The notes under the pieces are model-generated. The model saw nothing but the letters and a program-made list of their open reading frames with translations. It made no database searches and was not told where the DNA came from. This document shows positions 1 through 29,507 of a stretch of 34,612 nt of DNA, one piece after another. Each line of letters begins with the position of its first letter. Within the stretch, counting starts at the first letter, position 1. Location: contig REDH01000033.1 in assembly GCA_007693585.1 (NCBI GenBank), positions 1 to 34,612 on the forward strand, written 5' to 3'. A program made the position numbers and the translations under genes. The stretch is from Deltaproteobacteria bacterium (GTDB lineage Bacteria > Myxococcota_A > Bradymonadia > REDH01).

Positions 1-436
1 CTGCGCCCCCTTCGCCGCGCCGGCCTTCGCCGTCGTCCCCGAGGCCGACGCGCTCCCCGTCCCCGTCGCCCTCCCCGTCCGCCTCGCCGCCCCCGGCACC
101 ACCGACGCCCAGCGCACCGGCCCCACCGCCACCCTCGACGCCGGCACCCGCGTCACCGTCCACGCCCTCCTGCGCCCCGCCCCCGCCAACCCCGACCTCC
201 GCCAGCACGGCACCCTGCGCACCGACCGCCCCATCCTCGGCGTCCTCGTCGACGACGGCCTCGCGCCCCTCGACACCCTGCTGGAGTCCTCGCCCGCCGG
301 CTGGTCCGGCCCCGACGTCCGCGGACTTCGCCACCCCCTCGACGCCCTCGTGCTCGGCGACGACCGGCGCACCCTCTCCATCACCCTCGCCGGCGCCCAC
401 CCCCAACGCCTGCGCGTGCTCGTGGAGGCCCCATGA
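1..436 (+). CDS. C-terminal fragment of an unknown protein
   Basis: An open frame enters from the left edge (first complete codon at base 2) and ends at TGA 434-436, giving about 144 residues. It is rich in Ala, Pro, Leu, Val, Asp and Thr and uses almost only C-ending codons. Its last part reads as alternating hydrophobic and charged residues (for example TDRPILGVLVDDGLAPLDTLL, near bases 220-285), which suggests a beta-rich fold. I recognise no family. Its stop overlaps an ATG at 433 (ATGA), which is the far-upstream possible start of the next gene, so the two may be co-transcribed. The wobble bias supports real coding, but function cannot be assigned from this fragment. Confidence 0.5.
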   Translation, partial: CAPFAAPAFAVVPEADALPVPVALPVRLAAPGTTDAQRTGPTATLDAGTRVTVHALLRPAPANPDLRQHGTLRTDRPILGVLVDDGLAPLDTLLESSPAGWSGPDVRGLRHPLDALVLGDDRRTLSITLAGAHPQRLRVLVEAP

Positions 437-534
437 CGCCGCATCCCGCACCCCCGACGCACCGCCACCCGCACCGCGCTGCGCGCGGTACCGCCCCCGA
501 CGCTCACCCCGCCCTCCCCGCACGCCCGACCCCC

Positions 535-3087
535 ATGCGCCCCATCGCCTCGCCGACCGCAGGACTCGCCGCCCTGCTTCTGCTCGCCAGCCTCGCCGCC
601 TGCGGCACCGACGCCACCCGCGACGACGCCCACGCCCGCGCCGGACTCGACGACACCCCGCCGGGCAGCGACGTGCGCCATGACCTCGGCGGCGCAGACT
701 GCGGCGACCCCCTCCTGGCCGACCTCCCCGTGGACCCCGCCGTCCGCGCGGCGCAGGGCCTGCAGCGCTACGGCATGGCCCTCGACGGCGCCACGTTCTC
801 CCTCGACCTGCACGGCGAGGACGGGGACCTCCGCGGGCGCCTGCGCTCCACCGTGACCCTGGAACTGGACTCCGCCACCGGGCGGGCGCGGGAGTGGCGC
901 GTGGACTCGGCGCTCGACGACGCCGCCGGCGCCCCCACCGGCGCGGCGCAGGTGCTGCGCGGGCGCGAGCTCGGCGAGGGGCGGATCTGGCTCGAGCTCG
1001 CGCACCGGGCCGCCGGGGTGGAGGTGCTGCAGTGGGTCGTGCTCGACGACGCGCTGCAGGCCGAGCGGGTGACCCTGGCGGTGGCGGCGACGGGGGGAGA
1101 GGGCACGGTGACCCTGCCCGGCGGGCGAACCTACCGCACCCTCGAGCTGCTGGACGCGGACGGGGCGCGGGTGGACGGCGCGGTGGTCGACGGCTGGCTT
1201 GCGGAGCATGCGGGAGACGTGTTCGCGACGGACGCGGCGTGGGCGCTGCTGCACGCGGCGGGGACGGACCCCGGGGTGCGCGAGGCGGCGGACGCGCACG
1301 TGCGGCTGTGCCGCGCGGCGACGGTGGACGACGTGGAGGCGGGGCTGATCGGTGCGCGGGCGAAGGCGCGGTGCGACGCGGCGGCCGGCGCGAACGGGGG
1401 GCTCAAGTGCTCGCGGGTGAGCGACATCGAGGACGGGCTCAACTGGCTGCTCACGGTGAACGACGTCATGGGCGCGGTGGGGACGGGGGCCACGGTGACG
1501 GGCGTGCTCGTGGCGACGGGGGTGGTGGCCACGGGTCCGGCGATCGGCGTGGCGTTCGTGGCGGGGACAGTGGGCGCGGTGCTCGTGAACCAGGCGATCG
1601 AGCGCTGGGTACGCAACAACCAGGACCAGGTCTTCGATGCGGCCTTCGGTGCCGGGAGCGTGGTGGCCGGGGGCGGCGGGCGCGAGGCCTCGAGCTTCTT
1701 CCGGAGCGGGAGTGTCGGGGATCCGCACTTCGACACCCACGACGGCGTGGCGTTCGACTTTCAGGGGGCGGGGGAGTTTCTGCTGGTGGAGGCGACGGAG
1801 GGCGCGCCGTTCGTGGTGCAGACCCGGCAGGAGCCGGCGGACGGGGTGTGTCCGTGGGTGGCGGTGAACACCGGCGTGGCCATGCACGTCGCGGGTACGC
1901 GGGTGGCGCTGTATGCGGACGAGGCGGTGGCGCTGCACGTGGACGGGGTGGCGGTGGATTCGGCGGGCGTGCTCGCCCTGGACGGCGGCGGCACGGTGGA
2001 GCGCGTGGAGGAGGAGCGCTGGGTGGTGCGATGGCCGGGCGGCGAGCGCGTGGCGGTGCACCGCCGCAGCGGCGCGCGCAGCCTCCAGCTCGACGTGCAG
2101 GTCGCCCTGCCGGACCATCGCCGGGGACAGGTGCGCGGCCTGCTCGGCAACTTCAACGGGGACCCGTCCGACGACCTGATGACGCGGGAGGGCCGGGTGC
2201 TGGAGCCGCCGGTGCGCTGGGAGGCGCTGACGGGCACCTTCGGGCAGAGCTGGCGGATCAGCGAGGCGGAGAGCCTCTTCGACTACTTCGGCGAGCAGAG
2301 CTGGGCGATGTTCGTGAACGAGGCGTTCCCGGGGGAGCGCACCCGCATCGAGGACCTGCCCGAGGAGGACCGGGCTTTCGCGGAGCGGACGTGCACCGAC
2401 CGCGGCATCGGGAACGAGGTGGCGTGGCGGGCGTGTGTGCTCGACGTGGGCTGCACCGGGGAGATCGTGTTCGCCGACAGCCACGCGTCCCGCACCCCGG
2501 GGCAGGAGGTGGAGATCCTGCCGCCGGTGTCCTCGGAGCTGGTCACGGAGACGCTGCCCCCGGCGCCGAACCGCATCCTGTGGACCTTCGACGCCGGCGA
2601 CGGGGTGCCGGACGCCGCCCCCACGGCGGTGTCCGTGCGCGTGTCGCCGATCGTACCGTCCGAGAGCATCGGCATCTTCCAGTTCACGAGCAGCTTCGGC
2701 TACATCATCGACCCGGTGCTCCGCTTCTCCCCGCCGAGCGGGGCGACGACGGCCGCGGACGCCTTCGCGCTGGACGCGTGGGTGGCGTTCGAGGTGGAGC
2801 CCCTGGACGGTCCGGTGCGGGTGGAGCGCATTCTGCTGGCGATGGCTCGGGGGGCCGCCTTCGGTGGGGACCGCGGGCTCATCCTGCGCACGAGCCGCGA
2901 CGGCTTCGCCGAGCCGCTGTGGGAACAGGAGGTGCTGACGGTGCGTCCGGACATGCGGCGCTACAGCGCCCCGCTGGGCATCCTGGTGGACCGCCCGACC
3001 ACCTTCCGGCTGTACGGCTACACCGGCGGCGCGGGGCAGACCATCGAGATCGGGGATCTCGCGCTGGATCTCGCGCCGGTGGAGTGA
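535..3087 (+). CDS. Secreted lipoprotein with a von Willebrand factor type D domain
   Basis: The frame is open from ATG 433, but ATG 535 is preferred because it begins directly with a lipoprotein signal: a hydrophobic stretch then the lipobox L-A-A-C (850 aa). Residues about 309-358 form a long Gly/Val/Ala-rich hydrophobic segment, possibly one or two glycine-zipper helices. A VWD domain follows: GDPHFDTHDGVAFDF starts at residue 395 and the diagnostic GLLGNFNGDPSDD at 535. A Cys-containing stretch near residue 620-640 (CTDRGIG...ACVLDVGCTG) matches the region that follows VWD in bacterial relatives. The C-terminal 200 residues look beta-rich. VWD domains usually act in adhesion or multimerisation outside the cell, so a surface adhesive role is inferred. 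Codons are C-ending up to about base 900 and mainly G-ending after it. Confidence 0.85.
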   Translation: MRPIASPTAGLAALLLLASLAACGTDATRDDAHARAGLDDTPPGSDVRHDLGGADCGDPLLADLPVDPAVRAAQGLQRYGMALDGATFSLDLHGEDGDLRGRLRSTVTLELDSATGRAREWRVDSALDDAAGAPTGAAQVLRGRELGEGRIWLELAHRAAGVEVLQWVVLDDALQAERVTLAVAATGGEGTVTLPGGRTYRTLELLDADGARVDGAVVDGWLAEHAGDVFATDAAWALLHAAGTDPGVREAADAHVRLCRAATVDDVEAGLIGARAKARCDAAAGANGGLKCSRVSDIEDGLNWLLTVNDVMGAVGTGATVTGVLVATGVVATGPAIGVAFVAGTVGAVLVNQAIERWVRNNQDQVFDAAFGAGSVVAGGGGREASSFFRSGSVGDPHFDTHDGVAFDFQGAGEFLLVEATEGAPFVVQTRQEPADGVCPWVAVNTGVAMHVAGTRVALYADEAVALHVDGVAVDSAGVLALDGGGTVERVEEERWVVRWPGGERVAVHRRSGARSLQLDVQVALPDHRRGQVRGLLGNFNGDPSDDLMTREGRVLEPPVRWEALTGTFGQSWRISEAESLFDYFGEQSWAMFVNEAFPGERTRIEDLPEEDRAFAERTCTDRGIGNEVAWRACVLDVGCTGEIVFADSHASRTPGQEVEILPPVSSELVTETLPPAPNRILWTFDAGDGVPDAAPTAVSVRVSPIVPSESIGIFQFTSSFGYIIDPVLRFSPPSGATTAADAFALDAWVAFEVEPLDGPVRVERILLAMARGAAFGGDRGLILRTSRDGFAEPLWEQEVLTVRPDMRRYSAPLGILVDRPTTFRLYGYTGGAGQTIEIGDLALDLAPVE

Positions 3088-5340: not shown

Positions 5341-6528
<1,188 letters not shown>

Positions 6529-6654
6529 GGTCTTGCCTCAGGAGAACGGCCCGCGGCGGGGTGCCGGAGGCCGGTGGTTCGAGCGTGGGGACTCGGGGAC
6601 CTCCGCGGGCGCGGTCGACGTCCGTCGCGGGCCTTCAGGACTCCGCCGGGGGCT

Positions 6655-7860
6655 TCAGAGGGGCAGCGGGCCGTCGGGGGTCGTCTCCACCCAGGGGAGG
6701 CCGTACTGGCCGACCTGGTGCATGAACGGGTCGGGGTCGAGCTGTTCCATGTTCCAGACACCGGGCTTCTTCCAGACCCCTTCGAGCAGGAGCTTGGCGC
6801 CGAGCATGGCGGGGACGCCGGTGGTGTAGCTGATGGCCTGGGAGCGGACCTCGCGGTAGCACTCGGCGTGGTCGCAGACGTTGTAGATGTAGTAGCGCTT
6901 GAACTGCCCGTCCTTGAGGCCCTCGATCCAGCAGCCGATGTTGGTCTTGCCGGTGTAGTTCTCTCCGAGGGACTCGGGCTTGGGGAGGACGGCCTTGAGG
7001 AACTGAAGGGGGACGATCTGGTGCCCCTCGTAGTCGATGGGCTCGATGGAGGTCATGCCGACATTCTGCAGGACCTCGAGGTGGGTGATGTAGGGCTGGC
7101 CGAAGGTCATCCAGAAGCGGATGCGCTTGAGGCCGGGGATGTTCTCGACGAGGCTCTCCATCTCCTCGTGGTAGAGGAGGTACATCTCCTTGCGACCGGC
7201 CTCGGCGAAGTCGAAGGGGGTGTGGATTTCGAGGGGCTTCGTTTCCTTCCACTCGCCGTTTTCCCAGTAGCGTCCGTTCTGGGTGATCTCCCGGATGTTG
7301 ATCTCGGGGTTGAAGTTGGTGGCGAACGCCTTGCCGTGGTCGCCGGCGTTGCAGTCCATGATGTCGATGGTGTGGATCTCGTCGAAGTGGTGCTTCTGGG
7401 CCCAGGCGCAGTAGATGTTGGTCTGTCCGGGGTCGAAGCCGCAGCCCAGGAGCGCGGTGAGGCCGGCCTTCTCGAAGCGCTCGCGGTAGGCCCACTGCCA
7501 GTGGTACTCGAACTTGGCCACGTCCGGCGGCTCGTAGTTGGCGGTGTCCAGGTAGTGCACGCCGGTTTCGAGGCAGGCGTCCATGATGGCGAGGTCCTGG
7601 TAGGGCAGCGCCACGTTGATGACGAGTTCCGGCTTGAACTCGCGGATGAGGGCGACGGTGTTCTTCGGGTCGTCGGCGTCGAGCTGGGCGGTCTGGATGT
7701 CCCGGCCCTGCATCTCCTTCACCTGGGCGGCGATGGCGTCGCACTTGGACTTCGTGCGGCTGGCGAGCAGGATCTCGGAGAACGTCTCGGGGACCTGGGC
7801 GCACTTGTGGGCAACGACGCCGCCGACGCCACCGGCGCCGATGATGAGAACCTTCGACAT
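6655..7860 (-). CDS. Carboxynorspermidine/carboxyspermidine dehydrogenase (saccharopine dehydrogenase family)
   Basis: This 401-aa NAD(P)H-dependent reductase of the saccharopine dehydrogenase family begins with a Rossmann motif, VLIIGAGGVGGVVAHKCAQ (G8-x-G10-x-x-G13). The cofactor-selecting ASRTKSKCDAIA follows at the end of strand 2. GCGFDPGQTNIYCAWAQKH in mid-protein and the C-terminal EGVWKKPGVWNMEQLDPDPF are typical of carboxynorspermidine synthases. The known reaction condenses aspartate semialdehyde with a diamine (putrescine or 1,3-diaminopropane) and reduces the imine. GGGAG lies about 10 nt before ATG 7860. Immediate linkage to nspC makes the assignment firm against the lysine-pathway paralogues. 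A promoter with a perfect TTGACA box lies upstream (7917-7945). Confidence 0.92.
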   Translation of the reverse strand: MSKVLIIGAGGVGGVVAHKCAQVPETFSEILLASRTKSKCDAIAAQVKEMQGRDIQTAQLDADDPKNTVALIREFKPELVINVALPYQDLAIMDACLETGVHYLDTANYEPPDVAKFEYHWQWAYRERFEKAGLTALLGCGFDPGQTNIYCAWAQKHHFDEIHTIDIMDCNAGDHGKAFATNFNPEINIREITQNGRYWENGEWKETKPLEIHTPFDFAEAGRKEMYLLYHEEMESLVENIPGLKRIRFWMTFGQPYITHLEVLQNVGMTSIEPIDYEGHQIVPLQFLKAVLPKPESLGENYTGKTNIGCWIEGLKDGQFKRYYIYNVCDHAECYREVRSQAISYTTGVPAMLGAKLLLEGVWKKPGVWNMEQLDPDPFMHQVGQYGLPWVETTPDGPLPL

Positions 7861-7916
7861 GGTGCATTCTCCCGCGATGGATGGGCCGCGGCCTCCCGGA
7901 GCGTGCCGCGGGCGGG

Positions 7917-7945
7917 GAATTCGGCTCTGGTGCCCGGGGTGTCAA
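7917..7945 (-). promoter_or_regulatory. Candidate promoter of the polyamine operon
   Basis: On the minus strand TTGACA (7945-7940) matches the -35 consensus at 6/6. It is followed after exactly 17 bp by GAATTC (7922-7917), a weak -10. It is 57 bp upstream of the dehydrogenase start. The -10 is poor, so only the -35 is convincing. Confidence 0.4.
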
Positions 7946-8101
7946 GGAAGAACGGGTGTGGCGCGTGGCGGGCGGCGGATGGCGGGTGGGGTCTGTCCGC
8001 TTCGCCCTGCCCGTCGTACCTTGCATCCCTGCGGGCCCGGGCCTAGCGGCGTGATTCCGGGAGCCTCCGTGCTTCCGGATCCCCCGCTCTGGAGTCCCCC
8101 C

Positions 8102-9100
8102 ATGCTGCCCATCCCCTCCGGCTGGTTCTGTATCGGCGCGTCCGAGACCCTGCCTCGGCACGCGGTGCGTCCGCTGCGCTTTGCCGGGCAGGACCGGGTG
8201 CTCTTTCGCACGGCCTCGGGAGAGGCGGTGCTGATGGAGGCGTACTGTCCGCATCTGGGTGCGCACATGGGACATGGGGGCACGGTGGAGGGGGAGACGC
8301 TGCGCTGCCCGTTCCACGGGTTCCGCTTCGACGGGTCCGGAGCGTGCACGGCGACGGAGTACGGGCAGCGGCCGCCGCGGGTGCGGGCGGGCACGGTGCC
8401 CCTCGACGAACAGGACGGGCTTCTGTTCGCGTGGCACGGCAGCCGGGGGGAGGCGCCCGGGTGGCATCTGCCGCCGACGGGCCAGGGGTCGTGGACGGCG
8501 ATTCGGCTGCACGAGATCCCGCTGTCGACGCACCCGCAGGAGATCGCCGAGAACAGTGTGGATGTGGGGCATCTGCGGGCCGTGCACGGGTACGAGTCGG
8601 TGCAGGAGCGGGAGCCGCTGCGCACCGACGGCCCGAACCTCGAGGCGCGCTACCGCTTTCGCCGTCGGCTGGAGCCCACGGGGCGCCTGGGCCGGCTGAC
8701 CGTCACCATCGACATCCACCAGTGGGGACTGGGCTGCGCGATGGTGGACACCCACGTCGCCCCGATGGGGCTGCGCCTGCGCAACTACGTGCTGGCGATG
8801 CCGGAGGACGCCTCGCGCACCCTGCTGCGCATCGGTCTTCGCGTGGCCCTGCCGGAGGTCCGCGGCCCGGTCCGCGGGGCGGCGGACCTGGCGATGCGCC
8901 TGGTGCGGGACGCCTCCTTCCCGGGCTACGTCCACGACGTGATGCAGGATGCGCCCATCTGGAACCACAAGGTGTTCGAGCCGCGCCCTGCCCTCGCGCG
9001 CGGGGACGGCCCCATCGCCGAGTACCGGCGGTGGACGGAGCAGTTCTACCCCGATCCGGCGGTGGTGCGGGGCACGGCGCCCTCCGAGGCCGCGGAGTAG
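8102..9100 (+). CDS. Rieske non-heme iron oxygenase, steroid/sterol oxygenase-like
   Basis: This 332-aa protein has an N-terminal Rieske [2Fe-2S] domain: CPHLGAH with Cys49 and His51, then CPFHG with Cys69 and His72. The mononuclear iron motif N-x2-D-x2-H-x4-H is complete (Asn151, Asp154, His157, His162), so it should be catalytic. The sequence around AYCPHLGAHMGHGG and HEIPLSTHPQEIAENSVDVGH resembles my memory of the KshA and DAF-36/Neverland (cholesterol 7-desaturase) group more than aromatic-ring dioxygenases. The substrate is therefore inferred to be a steroid or another hydrophobic ring compound. Start ATG 8102 has GGAG 8 nt upstream; an upstream extension of the frame lacks family similarity. 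No ferredoxin or reductase gene is adjacent. It is divergent from the polyamine operon across 241 bp. Confidence 0.88.
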   Translation: MLPIPSGWFCIGASETLPRHAVRPLRFAGQDRVLFRTASGEAVLMEAYCPHLGAHMGHGGTVEGETLRCPFHGFRFDGSGACTATEYGQRPPRVRAGTVPLDEQDGLLFAWHGSRGEAPGWHLPPTGQGSWTAIRLHEIPLSTHPQEIAENSVDVGHLRAVHGYESVQEREPLRTDGPNLEARYRFRRRLEPTGRLGRLTVTIDIHQWGLGCAMVDTHVAPMGLRLRNYVLAMPEDASRTLLRIGLRVALPEVRGPVRGAADLAMRLVRDASFPGYVHDVMQDAPIWNHKVFEPRPALARGDGPIAEYRRWTEQFYPDPAVVRGTAPSEAAE

Positions 9101-9264: not shown

Positions 9265-9367
9265 CGAACCATTCCGACGCGGTACGGCCGAAGGGCCGAC
9301 ATCGTGCGTACCGTTCCGATGCCTGACGGGGGACGACGACGCTCCCCCGGGCGCCCAGGAGGCCCCG

Positions 9368-11146
9368 ATGCCCGTGACCGCTCCCCCCACGTCACCCGCG
9401 CGCGCCCGCATCCGCCCCCTGTTCGGGCTGGGCGTCTGCCTCGCAGCGTCCAGCCTCGTCCTCGCCGCCTGCGGGGACGGAGGCGATGTGCTCCCCGAGA
9501 GCGACGGGCCTGCCCTGCCCTCGAGCGGGACGCCGAGCCTGTCGGACACGGCGCCGTCCGCCGCGCCGGACACGGACGGACCGCCGGCCACCAGCGCCCC
9601 CCTCGACCCCGCCGCCTGTGGCGCCGAGGTCGTGCCCGTACGCCGCCTGAGCCACTTCGAGTACCGCCAGACCCTGCGCGACCTCTTCCCCGACGTGGAC
9701 CTGCCGAACCTCGACCTGCCCGCGGACAACCGCCCCAACGCCTTCGACAACGACGCCGAGTCCATGCTCGCCTCGAGCGTCCTCCTCGAACGCTGGATGG
9801 ACATCGGCCTCGCCATCGCCCGAACCCTCGGCGAGGACATCCGGGACCTCGTCGACTGCCGCCCCGCCGAAGAAGCCCCCGCCGAATGGCTGCGCTGCGG
9901 CGAGGCCTTCCTGCGGGACTTCGGCACCCGCGTCTTCCGCCGACCGCTCTCCGACGACGAGGTCGAGGTCTACGGCACCTTCTTCGGCGAGCCCCTCGAC
10001 GGCGCCGGATTCACCGAGCGCCTGCAGCTCACGCTCCAGTTCCTGCTGGCCGCCCCGGAGTTCCTCTACCGCATCGAGCGCCCCCTCGAGCCCCTCGCGC
10101 CCGGCGAGCAGGGCCCCCTCGACCCCTGGGCCCTCGCCTCCCGCCTGTCCTACTTCGCGTGGGGTTCCATGCCCGACGACGCGCTCCTCGCCGCCGCCGC
10201 GGACGGCTCGCTCCTCGATCCCGCCGTCCTGCGCGAGCACGCCACGCGCCTGCTCGCCGACGACCGCGCCCGCGAAGCCTTCAGCCACTTCCACGAGCAG
10301 TGGTTCGACGTGCGCCGCATCCAGTCCACCTTCAAGCTCCCCGAGGACGGCCTCACCGAAGCCCTGCGCGACGACATGCGCGAGCAGGCCCGCCGCTTCA
10401 TCCACGGCGTGCTCTTCGAGGAGGACGGCACCGTCGCCGACCTGCTCGCCAGTGACCGCGTCTTCCTCAACGCGCCGCTGGCCGAGCTCTACGACGTGCC
10501 CGTCGGCGCCACCGACGACGACGGCTGGTTCGAGACCCGGGTCGACGAGCGCGTCGGCATGCTCACCAAGCCCTTCTTCCTCGCCAGCCACGCCCACCCG
10601 GACAAGCCCTCCCTCGTGCTGCGCGGCGCCTTCGTCCTCGAACGCATCATGTGCGTCACCCTCGGCGCCCCGCCGCCGAACGCCGAGTCCGAGGCCGCCG
10701 CCGTCGAGGAGAGCATCGACGGCCCCCTCACCAACCGCCAGTTCTACGAGCTCATCACCGCCGACGCCGCGTGCACGAGCTGCCACCAGTCCATCAACCC
10801 CATCGGCGGCACCTTCGAGCACTTCGACACCATGGGCCGCTTCCGCACCCACGAGCCCAACGGCCTGCCCATCGACAGCCACGCCACCCTGCGCGACTGG
10901 AGCTTCACCGGCGCCCAGGACATGATGGAACAGCTCTCGAGCGACGACACCGTCGACCGCTGCATGGTCCAGACCTGGACCCGCTACGCCTGGGGCGGCG
11001 CCCCGGTCGTGCAGTCCACCTGCCACCTCGACGACCTGCGCGCCCGCTACCACGCCGAGGGCGGCTCCATCCGCGACCTGCAGCTCGCCATCGCCACGCA
11101 CCCGCACTTCGCGACCTGGGTCGAGCCCCCCGCCGAGACGCCGTGA
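9368..11146 (+). CDS. DUF1592/DUF1588-family lipoprotein with a CxxCH motif
   Basis: The 592-aa protein starts at ATG 9368, set by an AGGAGG 6 nt upstream. The signal ends in a lipobox L-A-A-C. A Ser/Thr/Pro-rich linker is followed by modules known from planctomycete-type proteins. These are a DUF1587-like VPVRRLSHFEYRQTLRDLF, a DUF1595-like FGTRVFRRPLSDDEVE with FLLAAPEFLYRIE, a DUF1592-like ALASRLSYFAWGSMPDD with FHEQWFD, and a DUF1588-like RVGMLTKPFFLASHAHPDKPS. A DUF1585-like end follows. CTSCH (Cys469, Cys472, His473) could bind heme c. Biochemical function is not established for the family. Its stop overlaps the GTG start of the next gene (GTGA), so translation is probably coupled. Products of this operon should meet in the periplasm or at the outer surface. 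Confidence 0.9.
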   Translation: MPVTAPPTSPARARIRPLFGLGVCLAASSLVLAACGDGGDVLPESDGPALPSSGTPSLSDTAPSAAPDTDGPPATSAPLDPAACGAEVVPVRRLSHFEYRQTLRDLFPDVDLPNLDLPADNRPNAFDNDAESMLASSVLLERWMDIGLAIARTLGEDIRDLVDCRPAEEAPAEWLRCGEAFLRDFGTRVFRRPLSDDEVEVYGTFFGEPLDGAGFTERLQLTLQFLLAAPEFLYRIERPLEPLAPGEQGPLDPWALASRLSYFAWGSMPDDALLAAAADGSLLDPAVLREHATRLLADDRAREAFSHFHEQWFDVRRIQSTFKLPEDGLTEALRDDMREQARRFIHGVLFEEDGTVADLLASDRVFLNAPLAELYDVPVGATDDDGWFETRVDERVGMLTKPFFLASHAHPDKPSLVLRGAFVLERIMCVTLGAPPPNAESEAAAVEESIDGPLTNRQFYELITADAACTSCHQSINPIGGTFEHFDTMGRFRTHEPNGLPIDSHATLRDWSFTGAQDMMEQLSSDDTVDRCMVQTWTRYAWGGAPVVQSTCHLDDLRARYHAEGGSIRDLQLAIATHPHFATWVEPPAETP

Positions 11147-13851
11147 ACCGACACCGACCCCATCGCGTCCGCCCTGCCCTGCGGACCCTCGGGACCCTCA
11201 CCGCGGCGGGGGCGCTGCTGCTGGCCGCGTGCGGGGACGACCCCGCGGCGACGGACAGCACGACGGGACCCTCGCCCTCCCCGCCCGGGGCTTCGGACGT
11301 CCCGGTATCGTCCGGAGAGGATGTCCCGACCGCGGCCTGCGACGAGGAGAGCCACGAGGCGTTCTTCGTCGAAGCCGTCTGGCCCACCCTCGGCACCACC
11401 TGCTTCGCGTGCCACGGCGGCTCCAGCATCGGCGCCCTCGGCTCCGACCTCCGCCTCGTCGAGGTCCGCACGGCGGTGGACCACACCACCAACTACGCCA
11501 CGGCCCGCGACATCGCCCTGCGCGAGCAGGACGGCCGCTCCCTCCTGCTGCGCAAGCCGCTCGGCGAGCTCGACCACGGCGGCGGACCCCTGTTGCGCGA
11601 GGAGGACGAGGCCTTCGCCGCCCTCGTCGCCTTCGTCGAGCGCGTCTCCGCCGGGACCTGCGACGCCCCCGACGGCCACACCGCAGCCCCCGCCGGTCTC
11701 GCCAGCCTGCGCTGGAACGACGAGGCCGTGGAGGTGCGCCTGGGCCGCGTGACCCCGATCGCCGTGCAGGCCCTCGACGCGGACGGCAACACCCTCCGGA
11801 TGCCCGATGGCCTCCGCGTCACGGTGGCGGACGAGTCCATCGCCCGCGTGGAGGGCACCTCCCGCCTCCGCGGACTCCAGGAAGGCACCACCACGGTCAC
11901 CGCCCGCGTCGGCGACCTCTCCAGCCCCGCCCTGCCCGTCACCGTGCGCCCGAACCCGGACTTCGGCACAGCGGCGCTGCGCGTGCACCCCGAACAGCTC
12001 GTGCTCGCCCCGGGCGACACCCGCGTGCTCTCCGCCACCCTCCGCGAGCGCACCGGCGACCGGATCCCCGGCGCCCAGCCCCTGTGGCGCTCCGCCCACC
12101 CCGACGTCGCGACGGTGGACGAACACGGTCTCCTCACCGCCGTCGCCCCGGGCACCGCCGAGATTCGGGCGGAGTTCGAGGGGGCCACGAGCCCACCCCT
12201 CACCGTGCGCGTCACCGACGCCGCCACCGCGCTCGACGTGCGCTGGACCCTGCCCACCAGCGACGCCAGCGCCGCCACGCACCACCTGCTCGCCGCGGAC
12301 GTGCGCACCTGGCCCGTGGACAACCCGCGCTCCTTCGGGACCCCGGTGGTCGCCGAGCGCGCGGTGCTGCTGGTCGATGGCGCGGAGCACGGCCCCCTGG
12401 AGGCCTCCATCGATGGCGTCCGCGGGCAGATCGACCTCTCCACCCTCGACGTGGACTCCGCCGAGCTGCGGATCCGCGTGGAACATGGCGGAGAGACCGT
12501 GGTGTCCCCGCCCCGCGTGCTGAGCCGCGTGACGGCGGCGGAGGACGAGACGTGGCGCACCCTCGGCGGGGAGAATCCGCCGCAGTGGCGCTCGCTCTAC
12601 GGCGTGGAGGCGCGGCTCTTCGCGCTGGACGGACATTTGCACCTGCTCGCGAACCGGTGCGGACGGGAGTGCTCGCTGCTGCTGCACCAGTTCGATCTGT
12701 CGAACCCGGGCGGGGAGTGGCGAGGCGTGCAGTACCGCCAGCGGGTGCAGCTCGACTGGGACGGACAGCCGCCGGAGCGGGAGGAGGAATCGAGCCGCGT
12801 GAACCTGCCGCGGTTCGCCGGCTGGGGCTGGCCCTCGGCGGACGCGCGGGAGCCGCACGTGATGCCGGGGACGCCGGAGCGGCTCATCGTCTGGAGCAAC
12901 GAGGACGCCCGCACGCGCTTCAACCTGGAGGGGGAACCGGAGCGATTCTGGTACGACTGTCATGTGGCGCGCTGGAGCGACTCGGCGGGGCTGGACGGCA
13001 ACGGCGGCTGGCGGCTGCTCTCGCGGGAGAACCCGGCGTTCCTGGACGAACTGAGGCGGGACACGATGCCCGAGGAGCGCGGAGACCAGCGGCACCCCGC
13101 GGGCGTGGACATGGACCGGACCGAGGACTGCAACACGCCACATCTGGCGCTCGTCGACGGCGCACCGACGGTGGCCTACGTGGCGACACCGGTGCCCGAC
13201 AACGTCTGGCGGCTGCGGGTGCGCCGCTGGACCGGCAGCGAGTGGGAGAACGCCGGGCCGGTGCTCGATCTGCCGCCGATGGCGCGCATCCACGACATGA
13301 TTGCGGATGGAGAGGGACGGCTCATCGCCATCGTGGACACCCCGCAGCAGGAGGCGGAGCTTCTCCAGCTCTCGGGCGGGGCGTGGCGGCCGATCGGCTT
13401 CGAGGGCCCGGCGCGGGCGGTGCGGGAGACCGCGGGTGGCCACCTCGTGGTGGGTGCGGTCGTCGAGGGAGACCTCACCGTCCATGTGCGCGAAGGAGAC
13501 CGCTGGCGGCCGCTCGGGGCGCGGCTCAACCGGAGCGCCTGGCAGGACGCGCACGAGGTGGACCTGGTGGTGACCGGCGACCGCATCGCCGTGGTGTGGA
13601 CCGAGGGCCCGCTCGAGGGGACGCGTATGGTGTGGGCGGCGGTGTGGCTGGAGGACGCGTGGGACGTCGTGGGGGGGGCGCCGGTGGAGATGGACCCGGA
13701 CGTCCGGGCCATCGACGTGCGGGGAGTGATCGACGCGGACGGACACCTGTCCGTGACGTGGGCGCAGCCCAACACGCGGGACGAGGATCTTCAGGGGGGT
13801 GTGCGAAGCTGGTTCCGGCATGTCCGGCGCACGGCCTCCCCCCTGTTCTGA
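11143..13851 (+). CDS. Lipoprotein with c-type heme domain, two Big-like domains and a large C-terminal region
   Basis: The 902-aa frame starts at GTG 11143, overlapping the previous stop by 4 nt. A signal with LLLAAC is followed by a Ser/Pro linker. A cytochrome-like domain follows: CFACHGG (Cys87, Cys90, His91) then LREQDGRSLLLRKPLGE and GGGPLLREEDEAFAALVAFVE, as in planctomycete-type cytochrome domains. Two bacterial Ig-like (Big_2) domains follow around residues 185-265 and 280-365, each with the V-A-x-V-[D/E] plus G-T-A/T pattern. The last 430 residues contain Trp-rich repeats with the RRWTGSEWENAG type, suggesting a beta-propeller. Codons change from C-ending to G-ending near base 12540, just before this C-terminal region. 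A surface electron-transfer or binding scaffold is inferred; no exact function is known. Confidence 0.85.
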   Translation: MNRHRPHRVRPALRTLGTLTAAGALLLAACGDDPAATDSTTGPSPSPPGASDVPVSSGEDVPTAACDEESHEAFFVEAVWPTLGTTCFACHGGSSIGALGSDLRLVEVRTAVDHTTNYATARDIALREQDGRSLLLRKPLGELDHGGGPLLREEDEAFAALVAFVERVSAGTCDAPDGHTAAPAGLASLRWNDEAVEVRLGRVTPIAVQALDADGNTLRMPDGLRVTVADESIARVEGTSRLRGLQEGTTTVTARVGDLSSPALPVTVRPNPDFGTAALRVHPEQLVLAPGDTRVLSATLRERTGDRIPGAQPLWRSAHPDVATVDEHGLLTAVAPGTAEIRAEFEGATSPPLTVRVTDAATALDVRWTLPTSDASAATHHLLAADVRTWPVDNPRSFGTPVVAERAVLLVDGAEHGPLEASIDGVRGQIDLSTLDVDSAELRIRVEHGGETVVSPPRVLSRVTAAEDETWRTLGGENPPQWRSLYGVEARLFALDGHLHLLANRCGRECSLLLHQFDLSNPGGEWRGVQYRQRVQLDWDGQPPEREEESSRVNLPRFAGWGWPSADAREPHVMPGTPERLIVWSNEDARTRFNLEGEPERFWYDCHVARWSDSAGLDGNGGWRLLSRENPAFLDELRRDTMPEERGDQRHPAGVDMDRTEDCNTPHLALVDGAPTVAYVATPVPDNVWRLRVRRWTGSEWENAGPVLDLPPMARIHDMIADGEGRLIAIVDTPQQEAELLQLSGGAWRPIGFEGPARAVRETAGGHLVVGAVVEGDLTVHVREGDRWRPLGARLNRSAWQDAHEVDLVVTGDRIAVVWTEGPLEGTRMVWAAVWLEDAWDVVGGAPVEMDPDVRAIDVRGVIDADGHLSVTWAQPNTRDEDLQGGVRSWFRHVRRTASPLF

Positions 13852-13867
13852 TGCAAGGAGAGCGAGC

Positions 13868-15493
13868 ATGAGCACGAAGCGACAGCAGTCCCGACGCGGC
13901 ATCGACCGGCGGACGTTCTTCAAGGCGGCAGGCCTCGGGGCCGGCGCCTTCATGCTGCCCTCCCTCGCGCCGCGCACGGCCGCGGCCGGCGGAGGGTCGT
14001 CGCGCCCACCGCGGGTCATCTTCATGCTGACGGAGCTGGGGTGGAACCCGTTCGCCTTCCGGATGGCGCCCCCCGGAGCGCCCGAGGAGGTCCTGCTGCG
14101 CAGTGCCTACCACCCGGCATACAACAACCAGCCCGACCCGCTCTCCTGGGAGCTGGACCTGCGCACCACACCCCGGGATCGCTGGAGCGAGATCCTCGCG
14201 CCGCTCTACGACATTCGCGACGAGGTGATCGCCCTGGACGGCCTCGGCATGCTCAGCATCGGGACCGACAACCTGGGAGACGGGCACGCCGTGGGCTGGA
14301 ACCACGCGCTCACGGGACACCCGGCCGGGAGCTTCATCACCGGGCAACGGGCCATGGCCGGCCGGCGGAGCATCGACATGGAGATCGCGCACCACCTCCG
14401 CGCGCGGTATCCGCACCTCTCGGACCTGGCCGTGCTGCACATGCTGGTCGGCTACCCCGGCTGGGGCGGCGGTGGCACGGACACGTTCCACCACTGGTTC
14501 TATGACGAGACCCCGGACGGCAGCATCTTCAAGGTGCACCGCGAGGGGGAAGTGCGCCGCCTGCACGACCGCGTCTTCGGCGCGGGGCTCCCCGGGGACG
14601 ATGCGGACGCCCTCTCGCGCGCCCAGGGAGCGATGCTCGATGCCCTCGGCGACCGCTACGCCGCGGTGTCGTCCCGGCTGAGCGGCGGGGACCGCAACCG
14701 ACTGGAGCTGCACCGACAGCTCATCAGCGACGCCCGTCAGCGCATGCGCGTCCTCGAGGAGATGGTGTGCGAGGTGCCCGACGCCCCGATGACGCGCGGT
14801 GAATGGTGGAACAGCCCGCTGTCCGGCGGGGAGGCCCACCGGGCGAACATCGAGGCCTTCTTCAACCTCGCGGCGATCGCGCTGTCCTGCGACCTCTCGC
14901 GGGTGATCTGCATGGAGTTTGCCAACCAGGGCCCTTACCTCGGCGACCTCTTCGGTGCACAGGACGCGGACTTCCACGAACGCTACTCCCACGGCACGAA
15001 CCCACCGGCCCGCTGGTTCGGGGTGGAGGGGTCGCGCGCCACACAGGCGCAGTACGACTGGTGGCTCGAGGCGTACCCGGTCCTCACGCGCAAGAACCGG
15101 TTCCACACGTCGCAGGCCGCGCAGCTCGCTCAGCTCCTGCAGAGCATCCCGGACGGCGAGGGGACGCTGCTCGACAACACCCTCATCGTGCTGATGGACG
15201 AGATCTCGCACGGCAGCCACGGCCACGATCAGTGGCCGGTCGTTCTGATCGGGGGCAACGCGTTCCGAAAGGGCCGCTACATCCGTTTCCCGCGCACGAA
15301 CCCGAGCCCCGGGCGCATGTTCAGCGCGTCCGGCGCTTACAGCGGCGTACCGCACAACCACCTGCTCGTCTCCATCCTCCAGCACTTCGGCATCGAGACG
15401 GACACGATGGGGGTGGACAGCGTCCAGGCGCGCGCGCCCGGCCAGGCCTCGCGCACCATCAGCCTCACCGGGCCGCTGCACGAGCTCACCTGA
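13868..15493 (+). CDS. Tat-exported DUF1552 family protein
   Basis: The 541-aa protein begins at ATG 13868, with AAGGAG 7 nt upstream and 16 bp after the previous gene. The N-terminus carries a twin-arginine signal (DRRTFFKAAG, Arg14-Arg15, then a hydrophobic AGAFMLPSLAP and an A-x-A cleavage site), so it is exported folded. The body matches DUF1552: GWNHALTGHPAGSFITG, the central helical DRNRLELHRQLISDARQRM, NLAAIALSCDLSRVICMEF, and the C-terminal LIVLMDEISHGSHGHDQWPVVLIGG. That last part resembles the metal-binding end of alkaline-phosphatase-like (DUF1501-type) proteins. DUF1552 and DUF1592 genes are commonly paired in planctomycetes and myxobacteria. The Tat signal suggests a bound cofactor or metal, which is inference. 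It is the last gene of the three-gene operon. Confidence 0.9.
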   Translation: MSTKRQQSRRGIDRRTFFKAAGLGAGAFMLPSLAPRTAAAGGGSSRPPRVIFMLTELGWNPFAFRMAPPGAPEEVLLRSAYHPAYNNQPDPLSWELDLRTTPRDRWSEILAPLYDIRDEVIALDGLGMLSIGTDNLGDGHAVGWNHALTGHPAGSFITGQRAMAGRRSIDMEIAHHLRARYPHLSDLAVLHMLVGYPGWGGGGTDTFHHWFYDETPDGSIFKVHREGEVRRLHDRVFGAGLPGDDADALSRAQGAMLDALGDRYAAVSSRLSGGDRNRLELHRQLISDARQRMRVLEEMVCEVPDAPMTRGEWWNSPLSGGEAHRANIEAFFNLAAIALSCDLSRVICMEFANQGPYLGDLFGAQDADFHERYSHGTNPPARWFGVEGSRATQAQYDWWLEAYPVLTRKNRFHTSQAAQLAQLLQSIPDGEGTLLDNTLIVLMDEISHGSHGHDQWPVVLIGGNAFRKGRYIRFPRTNPSPGRMFSASGAYSGVPHNHLLVSILQHFGIETDTMGVDSVQARAPGQASRTISLTGPLHELT

Positions 15494-26903: not shown

Positions 26904-27011
26904 GGCTACCTCTTCGCAGGCGGGGAATTCTAACGACCGACAATGCGATCGCGGACCCAGGTCGGGTCCATGCTGCGAAGGGTAGCGTGAGCGATGGAGC
27001 GGCTCACTCGA

Positions 27012-27032
27012 CGAACGTTCGAGAACCGTTCG
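27012..27032 (-). terminator. Weak hairpin between two minus-strand genes
   Basis: CGAACG (27012-27017) pairs with CGTTCG (27027-27032) around a 9-nt loop, 52 bp past the stop of the M13 peptidase gene and before the start of the mosaic lipoprotein gene. There is no T-run. It could end transcription, or be a palindromic binding site upstream of the next gene. Confidence 0.25.
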
Positions 27033-27083
27033 AGGCTGAAATCGAGGGCGAGAAGTGCGCCCGCGCGGGTCGAGATGCTCGGG

Positions 27084-29192
27084 CTACCAGATCCGCACGC
27101 GCTCCTCCGGCGGGAGGAAGAGCGCATGGTCCTCCGTGACCCCGAACGCGTCGTACCAGGCGTCGAGGTTTCGGACGACGCCGAGGACCCGGTACCGGCC
27201 CGGGCTGTGAGGGCCGTTGACGAGCTGCTGTCGGAGGGCGTCGTCCCGGAACAGGGTTCGCCAGACCTGGGCCCAGGCGAGGAAGAAGCGCTGATCCCCG
27301 GTGAAGCCGTCGATGACGGGCGCCTCTCCGTCGGGGTAGGTGACCGCGACGTGGTTGCGGTAGGCGACGTAGGCCATCTGCATGCCGCCGAGGTCGCCGA
27401 TGTTCTCCCCCATGGTCAGCCGGCCGATGATGCAGAGGTCGTCGATCGGGCAGAACTCCTCGTACTGGGCGCCGAGCCGAGCGGCGGCTTCCTCGAAGCG
27501 GGCGTTGGTCTCCTCGGTCCACCAGTCCCGGATCCGTCCCTCGGCGTCGAAGCGGCGTCCCTGGTCATCGAACCCATGTCCGATCTCGTGGCCGATCACG
27601 GCGCCGATGGCGCCGTAGTTGATGGCGGCGTCGGCCTCGGGGTCGAAGAAGGGCGCCTGGAGGATCCCCGCGGGGAAGGTGATCTGGTTCATGAGGGGGT
27701 GGTAGCTGGCGTTGACGATCTGGGGGGGCCAGCTCCAGCGGCGCCTGTCGACCGGGTGCGGAAACCGCTCGACCAGGTCGTTCCAGCGGTGCTCTGCCAG
27801 CCGCAGGCGGTTTCCGAAGTGATCCTCCGGATCGATCACGAGACCCTCGTAGGTGTCCCATATCTCCGGGTATCCGATACGGGACTCGAAGGTGGAGAGC
27901 TTCGCGAGGGCTTCCGCCCGGGTAGGCTCGTCCATCCACGGGAGGGTCTCGAGGCGTCCGCGGAAGCCGACGATGAGGTTGTCGACGAGCTCCTCCATCA
28001 TGGCGCGGGAGGCGGGCGGGAAGTGCCGTGCCACGTACTCCTGGCCGACGGCGTGTCCGAGGGAGAAGCCCACCAGCTCCGTCCCGCGCCGGTCGCGCGG
28101 TCGCATCTCTTCGGTGCCAGCGAGGGTGCGCGAAAAGAAGTCGAACCGCGCCTGGTCGAACGCGCGGGGCAGCCAGCTCGCACGATCGCTGAGGGTCCGG
28201 AAGGTCATCCAGTCGCGAAGGGTGTCGAGGTCGGCGGCGGCCACATGCGCACCGGCTGCGGCGATGGCGCTGGGCTGCGCCACGATCACGGACTCGGCGC
28301 TGCCGAGGCCCCGCAGCTCGAGCGTCCGGAGGAGGTCGAGGGCGGGGGCGAGCTCGGCGAGCGCCTCCCGGTCGAGCACATTGTAGGTCTCCGACACCTG
28401 ACGGGAGCGTTCCCGGGTCCAGTGGTCCTCGGCGATCGCCGTCTCGAAGGCGAGAATCCGGCGGGCGCGGGAGCCGTCATCCTCGATGCCCGCCAGGTCA
28501 TGAAGCCGCCCGATATACTCGAGGTAGGCCTCCCGGTACTCGGCAAAGCGCTCGGCGGGATCGAGGTAGTACTCCCGGTTGGGCATGCCGAGCCCGCTCT
28601 GCCCCATGCGCACGGCGTAGACGGTGGGATCCGCAGGATCGGGGGAGATGCTCGTCCAGTAGACGGAGGGGAGATGAATGTCGGCCATGAGGGCGGCGAG
28701 TTCATCGTGGTCCTCGGCAGCGGCGATGCGTTCGAGGAGAGGGCGGATCGGGTCGAGGCCCGACTCCTCGATGGCCTCCTCGTCCATCCAGCTCGCGTAG
28801 AGGTCGCCGATGAGCTGGTTGTTGCTGCCGGGCTCTCCGCCCAGTTCGCTCGCATCCAGAATGATGCGGTTGACGTGCTCTTCGGCCTCGAGGGAGAGCA
28901 TGTCGAACACGCCGTAGCGCGCGCGATCCGCCGGAATCTCGGTCTCCCGTTCCCACGTCCCGTTGGCGAACCGGTAGAAGTCGTCGCCGGGAACGACATC
29001 CCGGTCCATGCCGGCCAGGTCGAAGCCGAAGGTGCCGAAGCGGGGGCCGGCGGGGGTGGTCTCCCCGACGGCCATGTCGTCCGCAGGGTCTTCCGCTGCG
29101 GGGGCGGGGCTCGACTCCGGCGCCCGGGCGCTGGACGCTCCGCAGGCCACGAGGAGGAGAGCAGAGGCAAGTACACACAGCCGATGCAGCAT
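27084..29192 (-). CDS. M13-family (neprilysin/PepO-like) metalloendopeptidase lipoprotein
   Basis: The 702-aa zinc peptidase starts at ATG 29192 with GGAG 11 nt upstream; the frame extends to 29297 without purpose. A signal with LLLVAC marks it as a lipoprotein, followed by an Ala/Pro/Ser linker. The N-terminal M13 domain starts at FGFDLAGMDRDVVPGDDFYRFANGTW. The catalytic domain has the substrate-binding VNASYHPLMNQITFPAGILQ, HEIGH (His535, Glu536, His539), and ENIGD (Glu596 the third zinc ligand, Asp600). It ends in PPEERVRIW, the usual M13 C-terminus but without the eukaryotic Cys. It should cleave short peptides outside the cytoplasm. It is divergent from an S9 peptidase, so the two probably degrade peptides together. 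Confidence 0.95.
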   Translation of the reverse strand: MLHRLCVLASALLLVACGASSARAPESSPAPAAEDPADDMAVGETTPAGPRFGTFGFDLAGMDRDVVPGDDFYRFANGTWERETEIPADRARYGVFDMLSLEAEEHVNRIILDASELGGEPGSNNQLIGDLYASWMDEEAIEESGLDPIRPLLERIAAAEDHDELAALMADIHLPSVYWTSISPDPADPTVYAVRMGQSGLGMPNREYYLDPAERFAEYREAYLEYIGRLHDLAGIEDDGSRARRILAFETAIAEDHWTRERSRQVSETYNVLDREALAELAPALDLLRTLELRGLGSAESVIVAQPSAIAAAGAHVAAADLDTLRDWMTFRTLSDRASWLPRAFDQARFDFFSRTLAGTEEMRPRDRRGTELVGFSLGHAVGQEYVARHFPPASRAMMEELVDNLIVGFRGRLETLPWMDEPTRAEALAKLSTFESRIGYPEIWDTYEGLVIDPEDHFGNRLRLAEHRWNDLVERFPHPVDRRRWSWPPQIVNASYHPLMNQITFPAGILQAPFFDPEADAAINYGAIGAVIGHEIGHGFDDQGRRFDAEGRIRDWWTEETNARFEEAAARLGAQYEEFCPIDDLCIIGRLTMGENIGDLGGMQMAYVAYRNHVAVTYPDGEAPVIDGFTGDQRFFLAWAQVWRTLFRDDALRQQLVNGPHSPGRYRVLGVVRNLDAWYDAFGVTEDHALFLPPEERVRIW

Positions 29193-29365
29193 CACGCGCA
29201 GCTCCGGTTTCCGGGGGGACCCACCGCCGGGGCTTCCCCTGTCATCGAAAGGCCGAGCGCGCAAGCCGCTGCTGGCCAGATGCGACAGTCCAGCCACCGC
29301 TGCCCCACCCCTGCACCCGGCCGTTGCTCCCCCGCCGTGACTCCGCCGCCGACCCGGTTCCCGGG

Positions 29366-29462
29366 CCCCGTTGACGGCGGAGCACGCCGGTCGCCACCCC
29401 GATCTCCGCGTCGGTCACGGGACGGGGTGGCCACGCCCCCGTTGACGGCGGGAGCACGCCGG
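29366..29462. repeat. Near-identical 25/26-bp direct repeats in the divergent peptidase gap
   Basis: CCCCGTTGACGGCGGAGCACGCCGG at 29366-29390 recurs at 29437-29462 with one extra G, starting 71 bp later. Both contain TTGACG, and the second forms the candidate promoter of the S9 peptidase gene. Short stretches near 29328-29350 resemble part of the unit. The rest of the 29193-29507 gap holds no gene. Confidence 0.65.
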
Positions 29463-29470
29463 GGAATGCT
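29442..29470 (+). promoter_or_regulatory. Candidate promoter of the S9 peptidase gene
   Basis: TTGACG (29442-29447, 5/6) is followed after 17 bp by AATGCT (29465-29470, 3/6), 37 bp before ATG 29508. The -35 lies in the second of two direct repeats, so a repressor or activator may bind there. Confidence 0.35.
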
Positions 29471-29507
29471 CCCCGCGGCCCGCACCTCCCCCCGCCCCCG
29501 TGACGCC

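Follow-up and report, generated by a model that had tools for sequence, protein, structure and literature searches.

DUF1592 and DUF1552 proteins are encoded in pairs in planctomycetes, verrucomicrobia and the class of the genome studied here, and these genes, like those of the DUF1501 type, occur in many copies per genome in planctomycetes, verrucomicrobia and the phylum of our genome. No published biochemistry of the DUF1592/DUF1552 pair was found in the literature. By analogy, the nearest studied counterpart of the module described below is Cbp2D of Cellvibrio japonicus, which has the architecture CBM2-X158-FN3-X183-DUF1587-X132 (PMC8981238) and is required for growth of Cellvibrio on insoluble cellulose, for which its authors propose that a Cbp2D/E heterodimer carries out the cleavage directly (PMC12542752). 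In Cbp2D and in the Teredinibacter proteins TERTU_3803 and TERTU_2913, a heme c domain lies N-terminal to DUF1587, a second CxxCH domain is present, and FN3 or pf08450 domains belong to the same chain (PMC8981238, PMC10916295). CjX183, the heme c domain adjoining DUF1587 in Cbp2D, reduces copper polysaccharide monooxygenases (LPMOs) in vitro (PMC8981238), and the X183 domains of Teredinibacter gave no electrons to their LPMO (PMC10916295). The proteome of a lignocellulose community also lists a CBM2- and DUF1592-containing protein from Cellvibrio (PMC6004670). In freshwater Verrucomicrobia, PSCyt/PSD domains are combined with Big_2, WD40 or CBM domains and the neighbouring families are conserved (PMC5615132).

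The locus analysed here occupies positions 9368-15493 of the window, i.e., the whole stretch of 34,612 nucleotides that was analysed, and consists of three genes, A, B and C, in this order. The order was confirmed, and coordinates, overlaps and motifs were as given in an initial annotation of the DNA. The features are as follows, with the evidence in brackets.

9368..11146, + strand: gene A, DUF1592-family exported lipoprotein with PSD3-PSD5-PSD4-PSCyt3-PSD2, 592 aa (Pfam)
9470..9472, + strand: lipobox cysteine of A, LAAC, Cys35 (sequence)
10772..10786, + strand: CTSCH heme c motif of A, residues 469-473, inside PSCyt3 (sequence)
11143..13851, + strand: gene B, middle lipoprotein, 902 aa (GTG start; homologue at locus L062)
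11320..11688, + strand: N-terminal heme domain of B, residues 60-182 (20-row alignment A10, invariants kept)
11401..11415, + strand: CFACH motif of B, residues 87-91 (sequence)
11692..12171, + strand: two Big_2 Ig-like domains of B, residues about 184-343 (PF02368, two stretches)
12271..13848, + strand: conserved C-terminal region of B, residues 377-902, without Pfam family, last third beta-propeller-like
13868..15493, + strand: gene C, Tat-exported DUF1552 protein, 541 aa (PF07586 match)
14975..14992, + strand: degenerate HXXSHH site of C, HERYSH (HERYSHG) (69-protein comparison)

The five domains of A, its CxxCH motif, the putative lipobox, the Tat signals and the gene order are shared with the known DUF1592/DUF1552 pairs, from which the locus differs by the third gene between the two and by C, whose clade is divergent and does not have the usual HXXSHH motif. 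Cbp2D and the TERTU proteins are single chains, including a CBM in the case of Cbp2D, whereas in the window a heme domain is found on a separate chain and a Pfam search of A and B for a CBM found none. In addition, X183 has His/Met ligands, in contrast to the invariant His of the heme domain of B. The extra domains of the verrucomicrobial PSCyt proteins are fused to the PSCyt protein itself, unlike the separate B (PMC5615132). A further group for comparison is formed by two-heme PSCyt2/PSD4/PSCyt3-like proteins with a DUF1501 gene following (L066, L080, L081 and others), whose N-terminal heme domain is the closest to that of B and whose partner family DUF1501 is homologous to DUF1552; in that group, however, the heme domain is fused to a PSD-type protein and there is no Big_2/propeller subunit.

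Gene order and distribution of the three-gene locus

Gene A starts with ATG and has AGGAGG at 9357-9362, the GTG start of B lies inside the end of A with an overlap of 4 nt (GTGA), and the gap between B and C is 16 bp, with AAGGAG upstream of C as a good ribosome-binding site. A scan for promoters and terminators found nothing. Because GC is about 73% in this region, where long open reading frames are cheap, homology and not the open frames decides whether the genes are real. When GTDB contigs were scanned broadly for the pattern, a single relative came up, CATLTV010000118.1 (contig 118 of G027; L062, also L082), from a MAG of the same class but of another family, which encodes A, B and C in identical order, with identities to the window of 45-47% for A, 33% for B and 50% for C. 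The B homologue lies at 7269-9716 of L062, and the genes flanking A-B-C there are unrelated to those in the window. The window genome contains one DUF1592 (PSD4) gene, namely A, and one DUF1552 gene, namely C.

Within the class and phylum, DUF1552 was present in 55 of 96 genomes, with up to 14 copies. The neighbourhood survey comprised the window and 80 loci with 69 DUF1552 proteins above 100 bits, and a DUF1592 gene immediately adjoined DUF1552 in 61 of the 69 (58 upstream, 3 downstream), which is not an unbiased rate, as loci were more likely to be chosen if they had a strong DUF1552 match or a B-like heme domain. The A-C pair is therefore a widespread known unit, with a high frequency in the class and phylum of the window. 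Only in the window and L062 (2/69 loci) does B intervene, so that the two genes are not immediately adjacent. Among 379 genomes of the phylum, a profile of its C-terminus recovered full-length B from two. The conserved heme-Big partner of DUF1552, for which the initial annotation had suggested this survey, was thus not recovered: among the survey loci, no family recurs beside DUF1552 in more than seven, and none of the recurrent families is a heme-Big protein. In L111 (G008), a third member of the DUF1552 clade of the window and L062, A and C overlap by ATGA and there is no B.

Other genes were seen next to DUF1552. In four loci of the window's own family (L165, L166, L167, L168), a gene of about 310 aa follows DUF1552, and in L168 its product resembles a lipoprotein; L165 and L166 have such a gene between two DUF1552 genes, a small tandem array, as opposed to the single divergent copy of the window genome. 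In L113, L115 and L162, a protein of 480-524 aa with five CxxCH motifs, a possible alternative electron partner, comes directly after DUF1552.

Elsewhere in the window, a Rieske protein with a KshA_C domain is encoded at 7616-9100 (+), on the same strand and 267 bp directly upstream of A; in L062 it does not adjoin A. Genes for saccharopine-dehydrogenase-like and PLP decarboxylase proteins at 5341-7860 (-) probably belong to the carboxynorspermidine/carboxyspermidine polyamine route. A prolyl oligopeptidase (S9) of 1572 aa at 26994-31712 (+) has about 880 residues without assignment preceding its propeller domain, and an open reading frame of 884 aa at 433-3087 (+) contains a von Willebrand type D domain.

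Heme sites in the DUF1592 protein and the middle lipoprotein

PSD3, PSD5, PSD4 (= DUF1592), PSCyt3 and PSD2 were identified in A in that order, each above its Pfam cut-off and with CTSCH in PSCyt3, so that the description of A as a DUF1592-type lipoprotein with CTSCH holds. The column of Cys35 contains Cys in at least 90% of 29 aligned DUF1592 proteins. C469, C472 and H473 of the heme motif are invariant in this 29-row alignment (A8) and 100% conserved in 77 aligned sequences of the DUF1592 family, whose members were picked for having a CxxCH. In the DUF1592 tree, the window groups with L062 and L111 (0.991), and the nearest sequence outside is L078 (0.70). A itself is without an N-terminal heme domain, whereas the DUF1592 proteins closest to it beyond the clade (L078, L063, L064) have one in cis. 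A match to the rubber oxygenase RoxC was rejected (NCBIfam NF051462, 12.9 bits vs. a cut-off of 900), as were hydrogenase matches, which were far under cut-off; searches of solved structures with A found no convincing relative.

A heme domain of the type missing in A is found at the N-terminus of B. Its profile matched 20 sequences in the surveyed loci, and in all 19 besides B the match lies at the N-terminus of a DUF1592-family protein. Of these 19 proteins, 16 are of the two-heme type and show degenerate PSCyt2/PSD4/PSCyt3 signals, several of them with a Tat-exported DUF1501 gene next downstream, and it is the two-heme PSCyt proteins with DUF1501 that gave the closest matches to the domain of B (E down to about 1e-16); the remaining three (L063, L064, L078) are DUF1592 proteins adjoining DUF1552. 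Those of L063 and L064 carry CBM_2: there, DUF1552 is followed by a two-heme DUF1592 protein with a C-terminal CBM_2 cellulose-binding domain, an arrangement reminiscent of Cbp2D. By sequence homology, then, the heme domain of B belongs to DUF1592-family proteins elsewhere, which the initial annotation had missed. PSCyt1 (PF07635) did not match it at E up to 1, and a PDB search revealed neither homology to X183 nor a convincing relative.

In the heme-domain family, 11 positions do not vary (Cys, Phe, CxxCH, Ala, Asn, Lys, His, Gly, Cys), and B retains 11 of 11, including CxxCH, the second His and the two flanking Cys. A second ligand of the iron could plausibly be the invariant His that is distant from CxxCH. 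Since the invariants are kept in B, and cytochrome c assembly (Ccm) proteins and TatC are encoded in the host genome, the two heme c sites proposed for the locus are plausible. However, the B of L062 opens directly with the Ig-like region, lacks the heme domain and has no CxxCH anywhere. On this comparison, the module does not always have a heme on B, and a heme in trans cannot be essential to it. The initial annotation had staked its proposal on a conserved third partner and conserved CxxCH motifs, which is partly contradicted for B, its one homologue being heme-less; the CTSCH of A is conserved. In a tree of the heme domain (120 columns, weak support), B was not placed with the DUF1552-linked group, and the tree does not show whether the donor was DUF1501- or DUF1552-linked. 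The simplest story told by these sequences would be that the heme domain was lost from A in the clade and regained on B in the lineage of the window.

Remaining domains of the middle lipoprotein and the DUF1552 protein

The lipobox of B is LAAC with Cys30, and the Big_2 match scores 52 bits against a cut-off of 22.8, so that B is, as described earlier, a lipoprotein of 902 aa with CFACH and two Big-like domains. No canonical lipobox was seen in the B of L062, as opposed to the clear LAAC in A and B of the window. The C-terminal half, with which a Pfam search matched no family and searches of solved structures found no convincing relative, is a new, unnamed domain, in which Cys506, Cys510, Cys606 and Cys663 are conserved and a W-x-x-[LIV]-[GSQ] motif repeats at 471, 526, 623, 748, 788 and 840. 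An AlphaFold2 model of B from a two-row alignment has a mean pLDDT of 42, with 62-78 at residues 181-270. In this overall low-confidence model, residues of about 670-830 form successive four-strand units, mostly at pLDDT 50-81. Foldseek matched the Ig part to S-layer and Big_2 proteins, and the model also to LigA, Big_2-CBM56 and, at low TM-scores, several propellers, including the lectin PLL2. The probable propeller of the initial annotation is therefore retained in part: the strand units and these matches support but do not prove a beta-propeller in the C-terminal part.

C carries SRRGIDRRTFFKAAG, in which the RR of a Tat signal is present; Arg14/Arg15 are invariant across the 69 DUF1552 proteins. 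PF07586 matched C with 90.2 bits (cut-off 30), and its assignment as a Tat-exported DUF1552 protein was thus correct. Strong DUF1552 members score 200-350 bits, and C is a divergent member of the family. The tree of C agrees with that of A, with window and L062 joined first and L111 next (supports 0.991-1.0). The HXXSHH motif is not intact in C: the column of its first His is 95% His in the DUF1552 family and contains Glu371 in C; within the clade, L062 has Glu here as well and L111 has Ser. The later His375 is retained in C. His140, Cys341, His375 and His451 show little or no variation across the 69 proteins. AlphaFold2 gave no usable fold of C (two-row alignment, pLDDT 34), and searches of solved structures with C and with DUF1501 found no convincing relative.

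Comparison of profiles with hhalign revealed that DUF1552 and DUF1501 are homologous (E 6.5e-12). DUF1501 is presumably a member of the alkaline-phosphatase-like superfamily. From this homology follow two parallel export systems at the level of sequence, i.e., a two-heme PSCyt protein with DUF1501 and a DUF1592 protein with DUF1552.

Interpretation of the module

The export signals, heme motifs, gene order and domain homology of A, B and C are established from the DNA, and the exported, probably surface or periplasmic redox unit that had been suggested for the locus has the support of these data. We propose, regarding the case as about evenly balanced, that the locus is a three-gene variant of the DUF1592/DUF1552 unit with a second heme provided in trans on B as a scaffold or binding lipoprotein. 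A and C would act together outside the cytoplasm, with B, at the surface or in the periplasm, serving as a stalk and binding subunit; docked on A/C, it would contribute the second heme, so that electrons could be relayed via the heme of A, the heme of B and an outside acceptor. C, as a relative of DUF1501, probably offers a site for catalysis or binding that depends on a metal. By analogy with Cbp2D and with the DUF1592 proteins carrying CBM_2, the module probably acts on a polymer, with a polysaccharide as the likeliest candidate. The three-gene variant is favoured by the order A-B-C, which is kept in a genome of another family despite different flanks, by the A-C adjacency in 61 of 69 loci, by the agreeing trees of A and C, by the heme domain of B, which is of the DUF1592-family type, keeps the 11 invariants and is found in cis in the nearest outside relatives of A, by Ccm and TatC in the genome, and by the homology of DUF1552 to DUF1501, which follows the parallel two-heme proteins. 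Against it are the heme-less B of L062, the lack of B in L111, AlphaFold2 models that are of low confidence for B and unusable for C, the altered HXXSHH of C, the failure to find a CBM in A or B or an LPMO_10 in the genome, and the tree of the heme domain, in which B is apart from the DUF1552-linked group.

The same observations can be read differently, with A and C as the functional pair and B as an unrelated or accessory lipoprotein for surface binding or adhesion, the heme domain of which would be a recent shuffle without a role for A/C. The rarity of full-length B (2/379 genomes), the heme-less B of L062, the tight A-C pair of L111 and the Foldseek matches to S-layer, LigA, Big_2-CBM56 and PLL2 lectin all fit such an insert; nevertheless, B keeps its place between the two genes in two families whose flanks differ, and its heme domain is specifically of the DUF1592-family type with every invariant residue retained, and we therefore regard the insert as possible but on the unlikely side. 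Through its homology, this domain makes a stronger link between A and B than their adjacency does. The altered HXXSHH also implies that C might not be catalytic, and the module would then be a pure electron conduit or a surface scaffold around a degenerate DUF1552 protein. This would be in line with the clade-wide replacement of the first His (E371, E and S) and the low PF07586 score, but H140, H375, H451, C301 and C341 are retained and invariant, H370 is one residue off and could take over, and the 50% identity of C to its L062 orthologue indicates constraint, which makes a non-catalytic C rather improbable. Finally, the module could be an electron donor to an LPMO, as proposed for the X183 domain of Cbp2D on the basis of LPMO reduction by CjX183 in vitro (PMC8981238). 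The Teredinibacter X183 domains, which did not deliver electrons to their LPMO (PMC10916295), and the lack of any LPMO_10 match in the 97.7% complete genome of the window (search restricted to the AA10 class) speak against it, and we consider such a role very unlikely.

Returning to the three-gene variant with its heme in trans, the A-C pair is ordinary in these bacteria, and it is B that is rare. A broader and rather speculative idea, to which we give little weight, is that DUF1592/DUF1552 and PSCyt2/DUF1501 represent a general exported heme-plus-metalloenzyme machine for the attack on polymers that works without a copper monooxygenase, from which in the window the heme module would have been split off as a detachable subunit on a substrate-binding propeller. 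The pair is present here in a single copy, whereas relatives have as many as 14 copies of DUF1552, so that the effect of a knock-out could be interpreted in a relative that can be cultivated and likewise has one copy. What is new about the locus is that a heme domain which is fused elsewhere is provided here in trans, and since a domain of the DUF1592 family is thereby located on a separate chain, a direct contact between the subunits A and B is a concrete and testable prediction.
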